Shown piece after piece: positions 4,080 through 17,100 of a stretch of DNA of 43,514 nt. Both the position numbers and the translations under genes were made by a program. The stretch covers positions 1 to 43,514 of the forward strand of contig CANHWU010000006.1 in assembly GCA_947464415.1 (NCBI GenBank), in the 5' to 3' direction. The stretch is from Flavobacteriales bacterium. Lineage in GTDB: Bacteria; Bacteroidota; Bacteroidia; Flavobacteriales_D; Sanyastnellaceae. The notes below the pieces were generated by a model. The model made no database searches, was not told where the DNA came from, and saw nothing but the letters and a program-made list of their open reading frames with translations. How positions within the stretch are numbered: position 1 is the stretch's first letter; each line of letters starts with the position of its first letter.

Positions 4080-7000
4080 ATGAAAACTCATTTTTTGAGC
4101 AGCTTAGGCTGTTTATGGTTCTCTTTTTTTGCTCTTCCTTCTTGGGCTCAAAACATTACCACACAATCTCCCTCTCCCATTGCTTTGAAAACCTTACCGG
4201 AAAGCGAGCCTCCCATAGAGCAGGTATTTCAAGTGGAGGAGGCTTGGCAATGGAGAAAAAACCTCATGTTGGGACAAAGAGATTCTTTGGCCAACACCTC
4301 TATTGCTAAATTCAGATCTTTTTTCGAGCCCGCTGCCATTTCCACTATTGAGGTTTATCCCGTAGGTCAGGTATTTGACTATGTAGGAATGCAAGACCAA
4401 CTAATTCATATTCGTACGGACACCACCTTTTTTTGTAATTTAAGTCAATCAAAATTAGTGGACCAGCATGTTCGATTTCACTTCCCCTCCGAAGGGGATT
4501 GGTGGCAGGGAAACTGGTCTTTACAAGAAGTTGATTTTGACGATGGACAGGGTTGGAGAACGATCAATGCAGATCTTATAGAGGTGGATTATTGGGATAT
4601 TTATACCGACAAGCATATTGTATTCAAAGCCACTTTTGAGGGAGTACATTTTTATTGTACCATGATCCTCAAAGGAGCCAATTGTCAAAGCGTGTTTTCT
4701 TCGCCTAATCTTCCTTTATGGGTCGCCGAGAACCCGGAATTTCCATGGAGGTTGTCGGTAAATACGGAGGTGGGTTTGTTGAGCGCTAATGCCTATACTT
4801 TGCACAGTGAGGATGGTGTTTTTGATCAACCCTTCATTTTTGTGGAGGGAATTGATTTTGGGTATGAGCAATATCCTTATCAAAACGGAACTTTTGGGTG
4901 GTGTCAATTTACAGGAGGGGATTATTCTGGAGATTATTCTATGATGAGTGAATCTCCCGTTTTTTTGAATGAACTGAGAGAAAGAGGGTATGATATCATT
5001 TTGTTGGATTTTGTAGACGGTGCCGCGGATATTCGGGCCAATGCAGAGATTTTGATAAAGTTGATACAATTGTGTAACAATTTTAAGGAGGGAAATGACC
5101 ATCTAGTGGTAGCGGGAGCGAGCATGGGTGGACAAGTGGCGAGATGTGCGTTAGGTAAAATGGAACAAATGGGAGAGCCGCATTGCGTGGGTGTGTATAT
5201 CTCATTGGATAGCCCCCATGAAGGTGCCAACATTCCATTAGGTTTACAAGCGCTGTTGTCTTTTATGTCTACTTACAACGCAAATGCGGACTCTTTTGTA
5301 CATGATGCGCTTACACGCACGGCAGCCCAGCAACTCTTGATCTATCAATGGTTGGATTCCGAGGGTTGGATCAGCGCACCTTGGAAAAGAGCGGAATATC
5401 AAAACTATTTGCAGAGTCTTCCCTTTCCTTCTCATTGTTTTTCGATGGCCATAGCCAATGGGAATTTTCAGCAGCAGGGCCTGGATTGCAGCCCGTTTTT
5501 AATAGAAGAAAATTGCGATGCTAGCGTCATTATTCCCGGAAACGAGTTGGAGTTGAGAGCCTTTACCCTTCCGGGAGATTTAACGAATATCAATAATACA
5601 GAAAGCGCAAATGTCATTGCGGATTTGACCTTTACCCAGATCGACTGGAATGGAATCATCCCAGATGTAACACAAGACCATCAATTGCTTTATGTTCCCA
5701 ACAACCTCTTGGCATTGGATTGCCGAGCAGGCGGTTATAGAGCTTCTATGGTTCAGTTAGTAAACGCTCTGAATGAAAGCCCTGATTTTTCTAATCAATG
5801 TGGAAGCATTTCGTCCAATCAATACTTGGCGCAACACTGTTTTGTTCCGAGCCCTTCCTCATGGGCAATCCCTTTATCGGTGGATAATGTGGCAGAGGCG
5901 ATGGAGCAAAGTCCATTTGACTTTGTATATGCGCCGTTTGCGTCCAATGAATCTCACAGTGCATTGACATCATCCAATGCGGGTTGGCTTTTGTATCATT
6001 TGGATGTTATCATGAATAGTACAATGGAGTTGACTTCTAATGCAACGGATATATACAATTTTGGCACGATGGAGGATTGGATATTTCCTCATATAGACAT
6101 GCAAGACCATGATGTCATTAGTATTCAAAAGCAACAAGGTCTGCACGATGGTAGTTTGCCCTTTCCTACCATTGGCTCACATCATGTGATGAAAACAAAA
6201 ACGGGTTGTATGGGAGCTGAGATTTATTTGCACGGTAAAGCCCGATTAGAGATCGGTGATGAGGAAGGACTTTCTACCGCTTCTTTGATTGTTCGCGGGG
6301 GTACCGTTTTAAGAATAGAGGAAAAAGGCACCTGTTGGATCTTTCCGGGAAGTGAGTTGATCATCGAAGATGGTGGAAAAGTCATCATCGATGCAGAGGG
6401 AGGTTTGAGAAACGCAGGAGGTAAAATTGTCGTTAAGGAAGGAGGTGAATTGATTTACAAAAAGGGTTATTGTTCGTTGGAAAAAGAAAGCGCCCGTTTG
6501 CATCTAAAAGGAGGGCTGGTCCACTTGATGCCAAGCGCTCAGTTGAATTGGACTCCCATACTTGGACAAACGGGAGCCATGGAAGTTTTTCCGAATGATT
6601 TTTCCGAGTTCTATCTCGAACAGAACGCCACTATGAGAGCGGCAGGGAATCATACACAAGACACCCTGTTGATATTACACGATGGAGCACATTGCGATCA
6701 AATCTCTTATTTTGAAAGCCAAGTGGTGATGACCAATGGAAAAATAGTTGTGGAAAAGGAGGCTAGGATGAAATGGCGGGCGGACTTGGTGTTAAAAAAG
6801 CTTGTGATGCAAGGTTTACCCTGCAATGATCCTGAAGGAAATTTTATTACAGAAAAAAATCATGTGGTGGCATACTACTCGGACATAAAAGAGATTTTTT
6901 GGAATTCTACTTCTTTATCTGTGGAACTGTTCAATGTCTCGAGTACAGGAAGTCAAGATTGGAATGTATCCCACGGGCAGTGGCATTGGCAGTCAGGACA

Positions 7001-12944: not shown

Positions 12945-14789
12945 ATGTGTGGAATTGTTGGATATCTCGGAGATCGTCAGGCTTATGAGATTCTTATTAA
13001 AGGGTTAAAAAGATTAGAATATCGCGGTTATGATAGTGCTGGGGTGGCCATGATCAGGAATGGCAACTTTAGCTTATTTAAGTGCAAAGGAAAGGTTTCT
13101 GATTTAGAGGAAACTGTGGGAATGAGCGATCACTCTGGAAATATTGGCATGGGTCATACAAGATGGGCTACTCACGGTCCCCCCAATGATATCAATGCTC
13201 ATCCTCATTTGTCCAATGATGGGTCTTTGGTTTTGATTCATAATGGCATTATTGAGAACTATGCTCCCTTAAAGGCGGAATTAATCAACCGCGGGCATGA
13301 GTTCAAAAGTGATACAGATACTGAGGTGTTAGTGCATTTCATCGAAGATATTCGAGATAAAACAGGGGCCAATTTGTTTGAGGCTGTCAGAATTGCCTTA
13401 TCTGAGGTAATTGGGGCTTATGCCATTGTGGTGATGGATAAAAGCAATCCACAGCAGCTGATTGCAGCTCGAAAATCTAGCCCATTGGTAATTGGCGTGG
13501 GAAAGGATAATGAGTTTTTTGTTGCAAGCGATGCCACCCCTATCATTGAGTATACACGGAATGTAGTCTATTTAGAAGATGAGGAGATTGCGAAGTTGGA
13601 TAGGACCGAGGGAATGAAGATTGTTACGATTTCTAACCAACATAAAACGCCATATATCCAGGAACTAGAGATGAAATTGGAGGCGATTGAAAAGGGTGGG
13701 TATGATTCATTTATGTTAAAGGAAATTCATGAACAACCGCGGTCCATCATGGATTCTATCCGTGGTCGAATGAATGTGGGAACGGGTTCTGTAAGAATGA
13801 GCGGAGTAGATGATCATGCAGATCGTTGGAGGAACGCGTCTAGAATTTTGATTGTAGCATGTGGTACCAGTTGGCATGCCGGATTGGTGGCGGAGTATTT
13901 ATTGGAGGAATTTGCAAGAATTCCGGTAGAGGTGGAATATGCTTCTGAGTTTAGATACCGAAATCCGGTGATTATGCCCTCTGATGTTGTGATTGCCATT
14001 TCTCAAAGTGGAGAGACAGCAGATACTTTGGCGGCAATTGAATTGGCTAAGGATAAGGGTGCATTCATCTTTGGTGTTTGTAACGTGGTGGGCTCTAGTA
14101 TTGCGCGCGCCACACACAGCGGAGCATATACACATGCAGGGCCGGAAATTGGTGTAGCTTCTACCAAGGCATTCACCGCCCAAGTTTCAGTTTTGTATTT
14201 GTTGGCCTTGTCTGTGGCAGTTCATCGCGGTGTCATGAAAGGAGAGCGATTGAACCGGTTGATGGTTGAGATGAATTCAATACCGGATAAAATTGCGGAG
14301 GTACTGAAAACCAATGACGCGGTCAAGGCCATCGCTGAACAATATAAAGACTCTACGAATGCCTTGTATCTCGGAAGAGGTTATACCTTCCCGGTGGCTT
14401 TGGAAGGGGCGCTTAAATTGAAAGAAATTTCATACATCCATGCGGAGGGCTACCCCGCGGCAGAGATGAAGCACGGCCCTATTGCCTTGATTGATGAGGC
14501 GATGCCCGTTTTTGTCATCGCAACCCATGGAGCGAGCTATGAAAAAGTGGTGAGCAATATTCAAGAAGTGAAAGCGCGCAAAGGGAAAATTATTTCTATT
14601 GTAACAGAAGGAGATAAAATTGTCAAAGAATTGTCTGACTACGCGATTGAAATTCCGAAGTGTGATGACAGCTTAGTTCCATTGATTGCTGTAGTGCCGT
14701 TACAACTTTTATCTTATCACGTGGCAGTGATGAGAGGTTGTAATGTGGATCAGCCAAGAAATTTGGCCAAGTCGGTAACGGTGGAATAG
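12945..14789 (+). CDS. glmS: Glutamine--fructose-6-phosphate aminotransferase (isomerizing)
   Basis: 'MCGIVGYLGDRQAYEILIKGLKRLEYRGYDSAGVA', two SIS domains 'ILIVACGTSWHAGLVAEYLLEE', C-terminus 'DQPRNLAKSVTVE'. Confidence 0.98.
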   Translation: MCGIVGYLGDRQAYEILIKGLKRLEYRGYDSAGVAMIRNGNFSLFKCKGKVSDLEETVGMSDHSGNIGMGHTRWATHGPPNDINAHPHLSNDGSLVLIHNGIIENYAPLKAELINRGHEFKSDTDTEVLVHFIEDIRDKTGANLFEAVRIALSEVIGAYAIVVMDKSNPQQLIAARKSSPLVIGVGKDNEFFVASDATPIIEYTRNVVYLEDEEIAKLDRTEGMKIVTISNQHKTPYIQELEMKLEAIEKGGYDSFMLKEIHEQPRSIMDSIRGRMNVGTGSVRMSGVDDHADRWRNASRILIVACGTSWHAGLVAEYLLEEFARIPVEVEYASEFRYRNPVIMPSDVVIAISQSGETADTLAAIELAKDKGAFIFGVCNVVGSSIARATHSGAYTHAGPEIGVASTKAFTAQVSVLYLLALSVAVHRGVMKGERLNRLMVEMNSIPDKIAEVLKTNDAVKAIAEQYKDSTNALYLGRGYTFPVALEGALKLKEISYIHAEGYPAAEMKHGPIALIDEAMPVFVIATHGASYEKVVSNIQEVKARKGKIISIVTEGDKIVKELSDYAIEIPKCDDSLVPLIAVVPLQLLSYHVAVMRGCNVDQPRNLAKSVTVE

Positions 14790-14792
14790 TAG

Positions 14793-15749
14793 TTATTCGA
14801 GACAGCGTCTTTGAAATTCTTTTGCCTCTTTTTCAAATACGTGGACGGTGTGTTGCTCCACCAGATAGAAGTATTTTTTGGCTTCTGATTTTTTTCCTAG
14901 GCTGAAAAGGGTTTGTCCCTTGAAATAAAGCGCGTTTACATCATCTGGGTAATGAGATAGAATGATGTCTAGCATGTTCAGTGTTAGCGACCATTCTTCG
15001 TTATTGAAGTGGTTGAGTGCTTTCTCTAAGTAGCTCAAATAGCTAGTGGATTTTAGCTTTTCTTGGTTTTTTACTTGTTCATTTTGATTTTCAAAGGCAG
15101 CGCTGACATGCGCACTTTCCCAGTACGTAGTATTTTCTGTACTTGATCTTTCTTTGTAGGGATATACTTTTTGATCCGAGAGGACAATTGTTTTGACCAA
15201 TGGCTTCAATGAAGAGCTCACCGTAGATAATCGAGAGGTGGCTTCTTTAGACGGGATCATGACACTCATTTCGACGGAGGAAGGGTCAAGCTGAATTAAA
15301 TCTACAGGAGCTTGATCGTGGTTTTCTGTGGATATTTTATTTGAAGTTTCTTCTCTCTCTTCTTTTTGAGACTCGGATGCAGGGGACTGCAAAACAGCCT
15401 GTTTTTCTTCTGGAATCAATACACTTTCCTCTTGGTTTGTCAGGTTTTTAATGGTGTTTTCAGCGCTATTATGAAAGATGAAAACAGCAATCACCACCCC
15501 TATAAAAAGGCCTATCCCCCATCCCAAGAAGTGCTTTTTGAAAGTTCTATTTTGAAAACTAATTTCTTTTTGAGCGGGGAGATGCTGGAAGTTTTGATCC
15601 CAACAAGCGCCTTCAAATGCCGCCGCAATAAAAGGATCATTTTCCAGAAGAAAAGAAATTTGATTTTTCCTTTCTCCTTCTGGAAAATGGCCGGTGTTCC
15701 AGAGGATGATTTCCTCTTTGTTGGGTAAAGGATAGTTATGGTTTTCCAT
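14793..15749 (-). CDS. Single-TM protein with cytosolic anti-sigma-like N-terminus and C-terminal TPR region
   Basis: In-frame ATG at 15749 (MENHNYPLPNKEEIILWNTGHFPEGERKNQISFLLENDPFIAAAFEGA) chosen over the track start at 15788, giving a 14-nt overlap with the sigma-factor gene. TM 'LGWGIGLFIGVVIAVFIF'; C-terminal TPR-like 'LEKALNHFNNEEWSLTLNMLDIILSHYPDDVNALYFKGQTLFSLGKKSEAKKYF'. Confidence 0.72.
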   Translation of the reverse strand: MENHNYPLPNKEEIILWNTGHFPEGERKNQISFLLENDPFIAAAFEGACWDQNFQHLPAQKEISFQNRTFKKHFLGWGIGLFIGVVIAVFIFHNSAENTIKNLTNQEESVLIPEEKQAVLQSPASESQKEEREETSNKISTENHDQAPVDLIQLDPSSVEMSVMIPSKEATSRLSTVSSSLKPLVKTIVLSDQKVYPYKERSSTENTTYWESAHVSAAFENQNEQVKNQEKLKSTSYLSYLEKALNHFNNEEWSLTLNMLDIILSHYPDDVNALYFKGQTLFSLGKKSEAKKYFYLVEQHTVHVFEKEAKEFQRRCLE

Positions 15750-16281
15750 GGTGTTGTTCGATCCAAATCCGCATATTGCGTTTTCCATTTTGTAAATGAG
15801 ACTTAACGGTGGTCATATTTATTCCTTGTTGATCAGCAATTTCCTCGTAAGAAAGTCCTTTCCAATAGAATAACTGTATACAATGTTTTTGTTCGGGTTT
15901 TAATTCCTCAGCGGCTTGCTCTATGGCATTCCACCAAGGTTCGCGTTCAAGGCTACTTTCTAAATCTTCCCACGGGTCTTGGGATAAATTTTGGTATTTT
16001 GCTTTACGCGCTCTTATTTGCATCAAGCAGTGAAATTTGGTCACAGTATATAACCAAGATTTCCAAAAGTGTACATTCTGTTGAGGTATCTCATGCCAAA
16101 GTTTTTCAAAAATATCCGTCACTGCGTCTTTGGCATCTTCTATGTTTTGGAGGTATTTCAGCGATACTCCATATACCAAATGACTCCATTCTTGATAGAT
16201 CCTTTGAAATGAAGCCGCGTCTTGTTTTTTTTTAAACAAGACAAAGCTTTCTTCACTGGGGTATTTTGAGGGGAGTTTCAA
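15736..16281 (-). CDS. RNA polymerase sigma-70/ECF-family sigma factor
   Basis: 'FQRIYQEWSHLVYGVSLKYLQNIEDAKDAVTDIFEKLWHEIP', region 4 'AIEQAAEELKPEQKHCIQLFYWKGLSYEEIADQQGINMTTVKSHLQNGKRNMRIWIE'. Confidence 0.92.
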   Translation of the reverse strand: MKLPSKYPSEESFVLFKKKQDAASFQRIYQEWSHLVYGVSLKYLQNIEDAKDAVTDIFEKLWHEIPQQNVHFWKSWLYTVTKFHCLMQIRARKAKYQNLSQDPWEDLESSLEREPWWNAIEQAAEELKPEQKHCIQLFYWKGLSYEEIADQQGINMTTVKSHLQNGKRNMRIWIEQHHGKP

Positions 16282-16284
16282 CGG

Positions 16285-17028
16285 CTATTTCTTTTTTTTG
16301 GCGTTGAGTTTTTGGTAGTATTCTTGGGTAAAACTTTTGGTATTGATTACCACCACACCGCCCGTCGTATCTCCATATGTGGCGGGCATTCCTCCTGTAT
16401 ATACAGAAATACTAGAAATTCCGGAAGACGGGATGTTGGGAACATTTTCACGGATTTTTACACCATCTATGAAGTACAGCACACTGCCCGCTCTGCTTCC
16501 CCTGAAGTAAAGTTCTTCCCCATTGGGACTTGCCTTGACATCGGAGAGCATTCCGATGACCATTCTTTTGATATCTCCTCCATGAGCACTGGACAGGTGT
16601 GTCATTTCTTTAGCGGTTAGCGTTGTAAAAGTACCACCATCTGGATCAATTAATGGGATGGCATAATCTTCAATTTCTAATGTGGCACCCAACAAGGAAG
16701 AGTCTTGCAAGACTACATTGAGAATAGTGATTTTGTCGGGGTTGATCATCACCCCTCTTTTCATTAATTCTGATTTTCCTTGCATCTTGAACCGAACATC
16801 ATAAGATCCGGCAGTGATAGCATTGATTCGATAACGGCCATCGGGATCTGTTGCGCCGCCAAACATCGCATGACCATCTCCTGTTTCTACGGTTACCATC
16901 ACCCCTGGTATCGATGATTCAGTAGTTCCTTGAACATGCCCGTATAATGTTCCGAAGGATTGGCCATGAACGTTTATAAGGGTGAGGAATAAAATGCCGA
17001 AGCACCCGAGCATTGGATAGTTTTTCAT
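16285..17028 (-). CDS. Secreted carboxypeptidase-regulatory-like plus TonB-receptor plug domain protein without a beta-barrel
   Basis: Signal peptide 'MKNYPMLGCFGILFLTLINVHGQS', 'GTLYGHVQGTTESSIPGVMVTVETGDGHAMFGGATDPDGRYRINAITAGSYDVRF', plug-like 'LYFRGSRAGSVLYFIDGVKIRENVPNIPSSGISSISVYTGGMPATYGDTTGGVVVINTKS', ending in a Lys-rich tail. Confidence 0.82.
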   Translation of the reverse strand: MKNYPMLGCFGILFLTLINVHGQSFGTLYGHVQGTTESSIPGVMVTVETGDGHAMFGGATDPDGRYRINAITAGSYDVRFKMQGKSELMKRGVMINPDKITILNVVLQDSSLLGATLEIEDYAIPLIDPDGGTFTTLTAKEMTHLSSAHGGDIKRMVIGMLSDVKASPNGEELYFRGSRAGSVLYFIDGVKIRENVPNIPSSGISSISVYTGGMPATYGDTTGGVVVINTKSFTQEYYQKLNAKKKK

Positions 17029-17100
17029 TTCTTTTGTTTTCTTTGAGATGCCAAGGGTGGATTAATTCCACAAAAAAAATCAAAAGAAGTTTTTAAATAC

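Follow-up and report, generated by a model that had tools for sequence, protein, structure and literature searches.

The closest described systems to the locus analysed here are the FecI/FecR/FecA (FecIRA)-type signalling systems and the STN-bearing SusC systems of Bacteroides, which combine an ECF sigma factor, a single-transmembrane (TM) anti-sigma factor, and a protein with the N-terminal region of a TonB receptor, and in which the receptor-like gene is autoregulated. Contact between the receptor N-terminus and the anti-sigma factor is a feature of FecIRA-type signalling (PMC11637429). The Dma/Das dual membrane-spanning anti-sigma systems of Bacteroides, which are found only in Bacteroidota, possess an N-terminal anti-sigma domain (ASD), a TM helix, and a long disordered tether, are encoded in a small sigma operon, and end, in Dma, in an outer-membrane beta-barrel (PMC13088901). 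A separate plug is also known from the T9SS translocon of Bacteroidota, whose Plug (Fjoh_1759; structure with SprA, 6H3J) is located on the periplasmic side of the outer membrane and acts as a stopper protein that seals SprA and prevents leakage (PMC9127263, PMC10994853). In SusC/RagA receptors, a CarboxypepD_reg domain (NTE) followed by a TonB plug precedes a 22-strand barrel.

The window, which is the whole 43,514-nt stretch that was analysed (GCA_947464415.1, contig CANHWU010000006.1, a Flavobacteriales bacterium), carries on its minus strand a trio of genes at 14793-17028 that encode a plug protein, a sigma factor, and a TM/TPR protein. The trio shares the three kinds of component and the autoregulated receptor-like gene with FecIRA-type systems, but it has no barrel, STN, or FecR domain, possesses a TPR sensor end instead, and its plug is kept where the sigma and anti-sigma factors have been lost. 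The first-pass annotation had proposed a non-FecR type of anti-sigma factor, and the FecR periplasmic domain PF04773 gave 0 matches in the window's genome, with control genomes positive. In its ASD and TM helix, in the long tether predicted to be disordered, and in the small size of the sigma operon and its restriction to Bacteroidota, the trio recalls the Dma/Das systems; however, its anti-sigma factor ends in TPRs, and it includes a gene for a free-standing plug. The likeness to the T9SS Plug is one of function only, since profile searches gave no match between them and the window protein corresponds to the NTE and plug of a TonB receptor with its own sigma switch. In a PDB profile search, the plug profile spanned the whole NTE-plug region of SusC-type receptors of known structure, whereas the protein stops where their barrel begins. 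The trio fits none of FecIRA, Dma, and T9SS Plug, and no description of a plug/sigma/anti-sigma trio was found in the literature searched. The locus is probably an envelope switch that is built from an ECF sigma factor and its anti-sigma factor, regulates its own expression, and has a plug protein without a barrel as its main conserved output. As far as the literature searched shows, this is a previously undescribed kind of output for such a switch.

The first gene (16285-17028, minus strand, as are all features below) encodes a free plug protein of 247 aa, which is composed of a signal peptide, a CarboxypepD_reg (NTE-like) domain at residues 27-108 (16705-16950; PF13620, E 1.6e-13), a TonB-dependent receptor plug domain at residues 133-225 (16354-16632; PF07715, E 1.7e-09), and a C-terminal helix. 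Pfam detected neither a beta-barrel nor an STN domain in this protein, the C-terminus of which lies approximately 22 residues past the plug domain, and the earlier reading of a barrel-less plug with a carboxypeptidase-regulatory-like domain is upheld. PF07715 is present in 32 of 32 free plug members, all aligned free plugs end shortly beyond the plug domain, and Q23, located just after the signal peptide, is invariant in all relatives. The second gene (15736-16281), which starts with TTG 3 nt downstream of the plug gene, encodes an ECF sigma factor of 181 aa with sigma regions 2 and 4 only (Sigma70_r2, 7e-09; Sigma70_r4_2, 6e-14), in keeping with the approximately 180-aa length of this class. 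The third gene (14793-15749), which overlaps the sigma gene by 14 nt, encodes the TM/TPR protein of 318 aa. The ORF calls agree with the first-pass annotation in the coordinates, the gap, and the overlap, and the HMM searches it had suggested recovered the plug and sigma domains and, in the TM/TPR protein, only a weak TPR match. The last gene of the trio ends 3 nt from the end of a convergent glmS-like gene (14789-14793); the trio is located between purF-like and glmS-like genes in several relatives and at other sites in others.

The TM/TPR protein has the Class I/zf-HC2 layout, namely a helical N-terminal ASD encoded beside the cognate sigma factor and followed by a TM helix. In the AF2 model, a confident helical N-domain, with the ASD helices at pLDDT >90, leads into a single extended TM helix at residues 71-105, which is followed by a tether predicted to be disordered (approximately residues 107-220, pLDDT mostly below 60) and then by TPR helices. 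The ASD occupies approximately residues 10-56 (15582-15722; consensus ExxxYxxGxLxxxExxxxExxxxxDPFLxDAxEG), the predicted TM helix residues 73-92 (15474-15533), and the C-terminal TPR helices, assigned from AF2 and the weak Pfam match, residues 237-317 (14799-15041). Downstream of a sigma factor of the trio's sigma family, two genomes from a different family within the order (G040 and G051) encode a membrane protein with the N-terminus HLLSCDxCxEAxEGYE, to which xxxxDPFLxDAxEGf corresponds at the matching position in the window type. A window-type ASD profile built without the G040 and G051 sequences matched their anti-sigma factors at E 2.8e-15 and 4.9e-13 (2-sequence database), and one of these two (L316) reaches the Pfam zf-HC2 cut-off. 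Because of these matches, the window ASD is assigned by sequence homology to the zf-HC2 type with the zinc ligands lost, the CxxC being absent (DPFIAAAFEG, versus SCDxCxEAxEG in relatives), and the TM/TPR protein is a predicted anti-sigma factor, as its anti-sigma-like N-terminus had led the first-pass annotation to suggest. Profile-profile comparison of the N-domain with FecR gave a probability of 62% with a poor alignment, and the zf-HC2 match was preferred; a PDB search with the ASD alone gave no match. Classical anti-sigma domains adjoin only 6% of Bacteroidetes ECF sigma factors in one survey (PMC7406223). Degeneration of the zf-HC2 domain is one reason that such anti-sigma partners can be missed.

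Anti-sigma-like proteins whose periplasmic part ends in TonB_C, often together with CarboxypepD_reg, were observed at L107, L109-L113, L117, L315, and L316. Such TonB_C-ending proteins, in which TonB_C replaces the TPRs, occur with the same sigma family upstream in G040, G051, and other Bacteroidia families, and they appear from their domain content to be fusions of a sigma inhibitor and TonB, of which no description was found in the literature searched.

The trio is kept across many genera of the window's family and order. A short free plug of approximately 235-265 aa is present in some 34 of 60 relative genomes, and the order plug, sigma, TPR protein is found in nearly all plug-bearing relatives where the contig allows, with differing neighbours. 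A GTDB scan recovered the same trio in MAGs named Flavobacteriales, Cryomorphaceae, and other Bacteroidota, and in a few under other names such as GWF2_35_48; in a phylum-wide sample, full-length anti-sigma TPR proteins and free plugs were confined to the window's order. The plug co-occurs with the TPR protein (Fisher test, 8e-13; no correction was made for kinship). A point against the proposed switch is a genome of the same genus (G005, 96% complete) in which all three trio genes are absent but the fourth gene described below is kept with a near-motif. All three genes show dN/dS of approximately 0.08-0.17 in unsaturated pairs, and the plug is the most conserved among same-genus orthologues, with an identity of approximately 60% compared with 41% for the sigma factor and 28% for the TPR protein. 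The three-gene arrangement and its conservation are not due to chance. In a maximum-likelihood tree of 127 plug regions, the free plugs form one group apart from the barrel-bearing plugs, and the sole exception (L209) is a fragment running off its contig; therefore, the free plug is an old and stable protein and not the product of recurrent truncation. A tandem duplicate of free plugs (L092:4862-5572 and 5752-6450), with other genes inserted before the sigma and TPR genes, was also observed.

A strict promoter motif ahead of the plug, which is new here, was found de novo by counting spaced 4-mers in the regions upstream of orthologous plugs. The commonest 4+4 dyad occurred in 20 of 30 operon upstream regions, compared with at most 4 in shuffled sequence, and the resulting consensus, TATGGAAT-N13-GCATC, lies upstream of the plug in nearly all trios, in most cases 12-72 nt from the plug ATG. 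In the window, a predicted autoregulatory ECF promoter (17047-17072) is composed of the -35 element TGTGGAAT (17065-17072), a 13-nt spacer, and the -10 element GCATC (17047-17051), and is located 18 nt upstream of the plug start codon; it is the only match in the window at up to 2 mismatches. The motif is present at 37 of 41 GTDB trio loci but at 0 of 15 barrel-containing paralogues, a count made partly on loci used for its discovery, so that the fourth-gene test given below is cleaner. The exact motif occurs 45 times in the 60 genomes and the reversed pattern 3 times, and most exact copies lie 8-60 nt 5' of start codons, largely those of secreted proteins. The trio sigma factor is predicted to recognise the TATGGAAT-N13-GCATC promoter.

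The window's genome contains 3 exact matches, of which the trio promoter is one. The second (G000 C32, L325) lies 15 nt before a D-Ala-D-Ala ligase-like ddl gene, which is followed by the gene for a 1253-aa receptor, the receptor closest to the free plug; this operon was rejected as a conserved target, the exact motif being present there in the window genome only and without conservation in the genus. The third (C117) is antisense within a permease gene and was taken as chance.

Some operons carry a fourth gene of approximately 412-418 aa, in which CarboxypepD_reg is joined to an uncharacterised part of approximately 300 residues. The members of this family (410-450 aa; L191:6466-7719, L199, L216, L235, L300, L305, L311, L319, and L402) are either operon-linked or unlinked and preceded by the motif (the unlinked target being approximately 445 aa), and no Pfam or PDB match was found for them beyond the CarboxypepD_reg domain. 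A profile of mostly operon-linked fourth genes matched unlinked, motif-preceded genes at 1e-36 to 1e-52. Among 30 homologues found by homology, 25 have the motif immediately 5' of the start codon, with no more than 3 mismatches, where about 0.5 would be expected, and the proportion is 19 of 24 when six homologues are left out that are relatives of loci first detected by means of the motif. The homologue in the window genome (C160) has a weaker copy with 2 mismatches. CarboxypepD_reg proteins, a TPR protein, and a member of the OmpA family are among the further motif-preceded targets, as judged from their sequences. In G045, an exact motif lies upstream of a gene for a 1593-aa alpha-2-macroglobulin-type protein (L424:280-5058), which itself contains CarboxypepD_reg and a barrel-less TonB plug domain.

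The plug is not always linked to its sigma factor. In Fluviicola and a Crocinitomicaceae MAG, it is located away from the sigma/anti-sigma genes and has kept the motif, and the TPR anti-sigma factor is encoded elsewhere in these genomes, as is the trio sigma factor in F. chungangensis. Because the sigma-type promoter is kept even in this unlinked state, the plug is probably chiefly the conserved output of the sigma factor. In the L173-L180 clade, which is near the window's genus, the plug remains beside the same purF-type gene, but the sigma factor, anti-sigma factor, and motif are gone, and no trio-type sigma factor scored above background ECF sigma factors. These plugs are nested among trio-bearing lineages in the plug tree, and within L174-L180 they show dN/dS of 0.03-0.07, which corresponds to strong purifying selection. 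Another genome (G016), in which a shortened, divergent sigma gene adjoins the plug and the TPR gene is absent, looks like an intermediate in this loss. Since the plug stays under selection after the sigma factor, anti-sigma factor, and promoter have been lost, it does something besides signalling and must have a function of its own, which would normally be under sigma control.

A probable mechanism is proposed for the switch. At rest, the anti-sigma factor, which crosses the membrane once, would hold the sigma factor through its zinc-less zf-HC2-type N-terminal domain, while its tether and TPRs extend into the periplasm. When a cue from the envelope acts on the TPR end, the sigma factor would be freed and would transcribe the trio operon from its motif promoter. 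As the operon would be co-transcribed from one promoter, plug, sigma factor, and anti-sigma factor would rise together and provide positive as well as negative feedback. Transcription by the sigma factor would extend to the unlinked CarboxypepD_reg gene and, in certain species, to genes for further secreted proteins of the envelope. After export to the periplasm, the plug would serve as an effector, probably one that occupies or modulates a partner with which receptor plugs usually interact, such as a barrel, TonB, or the receptor of approximately 1250 aa, and it may in addition feed information back to the TPRs of the anti-sigma factor.

Several roles can be considered for the plug within this scheme. 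It may be a periplasmic signal carrier, equivalent to a detached FecA-like N-terminus, that docks on the anti-sigma factor at its TPR end and thereby controls sigma release, with its own gene as a target. The operon order and the co-conservation of the trio are consistent with this possible, though doubtful, role. TonB_C docks on the TonB boxes of receptors. The TonB_C and/or CarboxypepD_reg domains in the periplasmic parts of same-family anti-sigma factors elsewhere, the latter being the domain fused to the plug in the window protein, thus place TonB- and receptor-interface parts beside the same sigma family, which is suggestive of a plug/anti-sigma contact but not proof of it. Against this role stand the absence of an STN domain and the unlinked plug of Fluviicola, and the plug cannot be only a signal carrier because it is retained under purifying selection in genomes without the trio sigma or anti-sigma factor.

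Alternatively, the plug could work much as the T9SS Plug does, as a stand-alone stopper for an outer-membrane barrel, or could assist in barrel assembly, and be made by the switch when open pores or misassembled barrels accumulate. The receptor plug fold without a barrel of its own and the prominence of envelope proteins in the regulon (OmpA family, CarboxypepD_reg, alpha-2-macroglobulin) would suit such a factor; however, no barrel gene is co-located with the plug, and the T9SS Plug was absent both from the PDB profile matches (to E 1) and from the best 50 fold matches, a list dominated by the CarboxypepD_reg domain, and this role is somewhat unlikely. It is less likely still that the barrel-free plug combines both roles as a diffusible periplasmic messenger and effector, docking on the anti-sigma TPR end and on barrels or TonB; if true, such a plug would set sigma activity and change envelope traffic, which would amount to cell-surface signalling without a surface receptor. 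Finally, the first-pass annotation had made its reading depend on a conserved trio and on a plug that is not a truncated pseudogene, and it is highly improbable that the plug is a truncated receptor remnant that chances to precede a sigma/anti-sigma pair: although its nearest relatives are the N-termini of barrel receptors of approximately 1250 aa, the free plugs form a single group of constant length, usually 232-265 aa, with a conserved C-terminal tail, and the plug is not a broken receptor because the trio is conserved in synteny across genera, in relatives and GTDB genomes alike, under purifying selection.

The promoter motif opens the regulon, and with it the inducing stress, to direct testing in Fluviicola, which can be cultured. 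The usual teaching treats the plug domain as one part of a barrel. That a free plug has been conserved under a sigma switch of its own indicates that, in this widespread group of aquatic bacteria, the plug does something in the envelope for which it needs no barrel.
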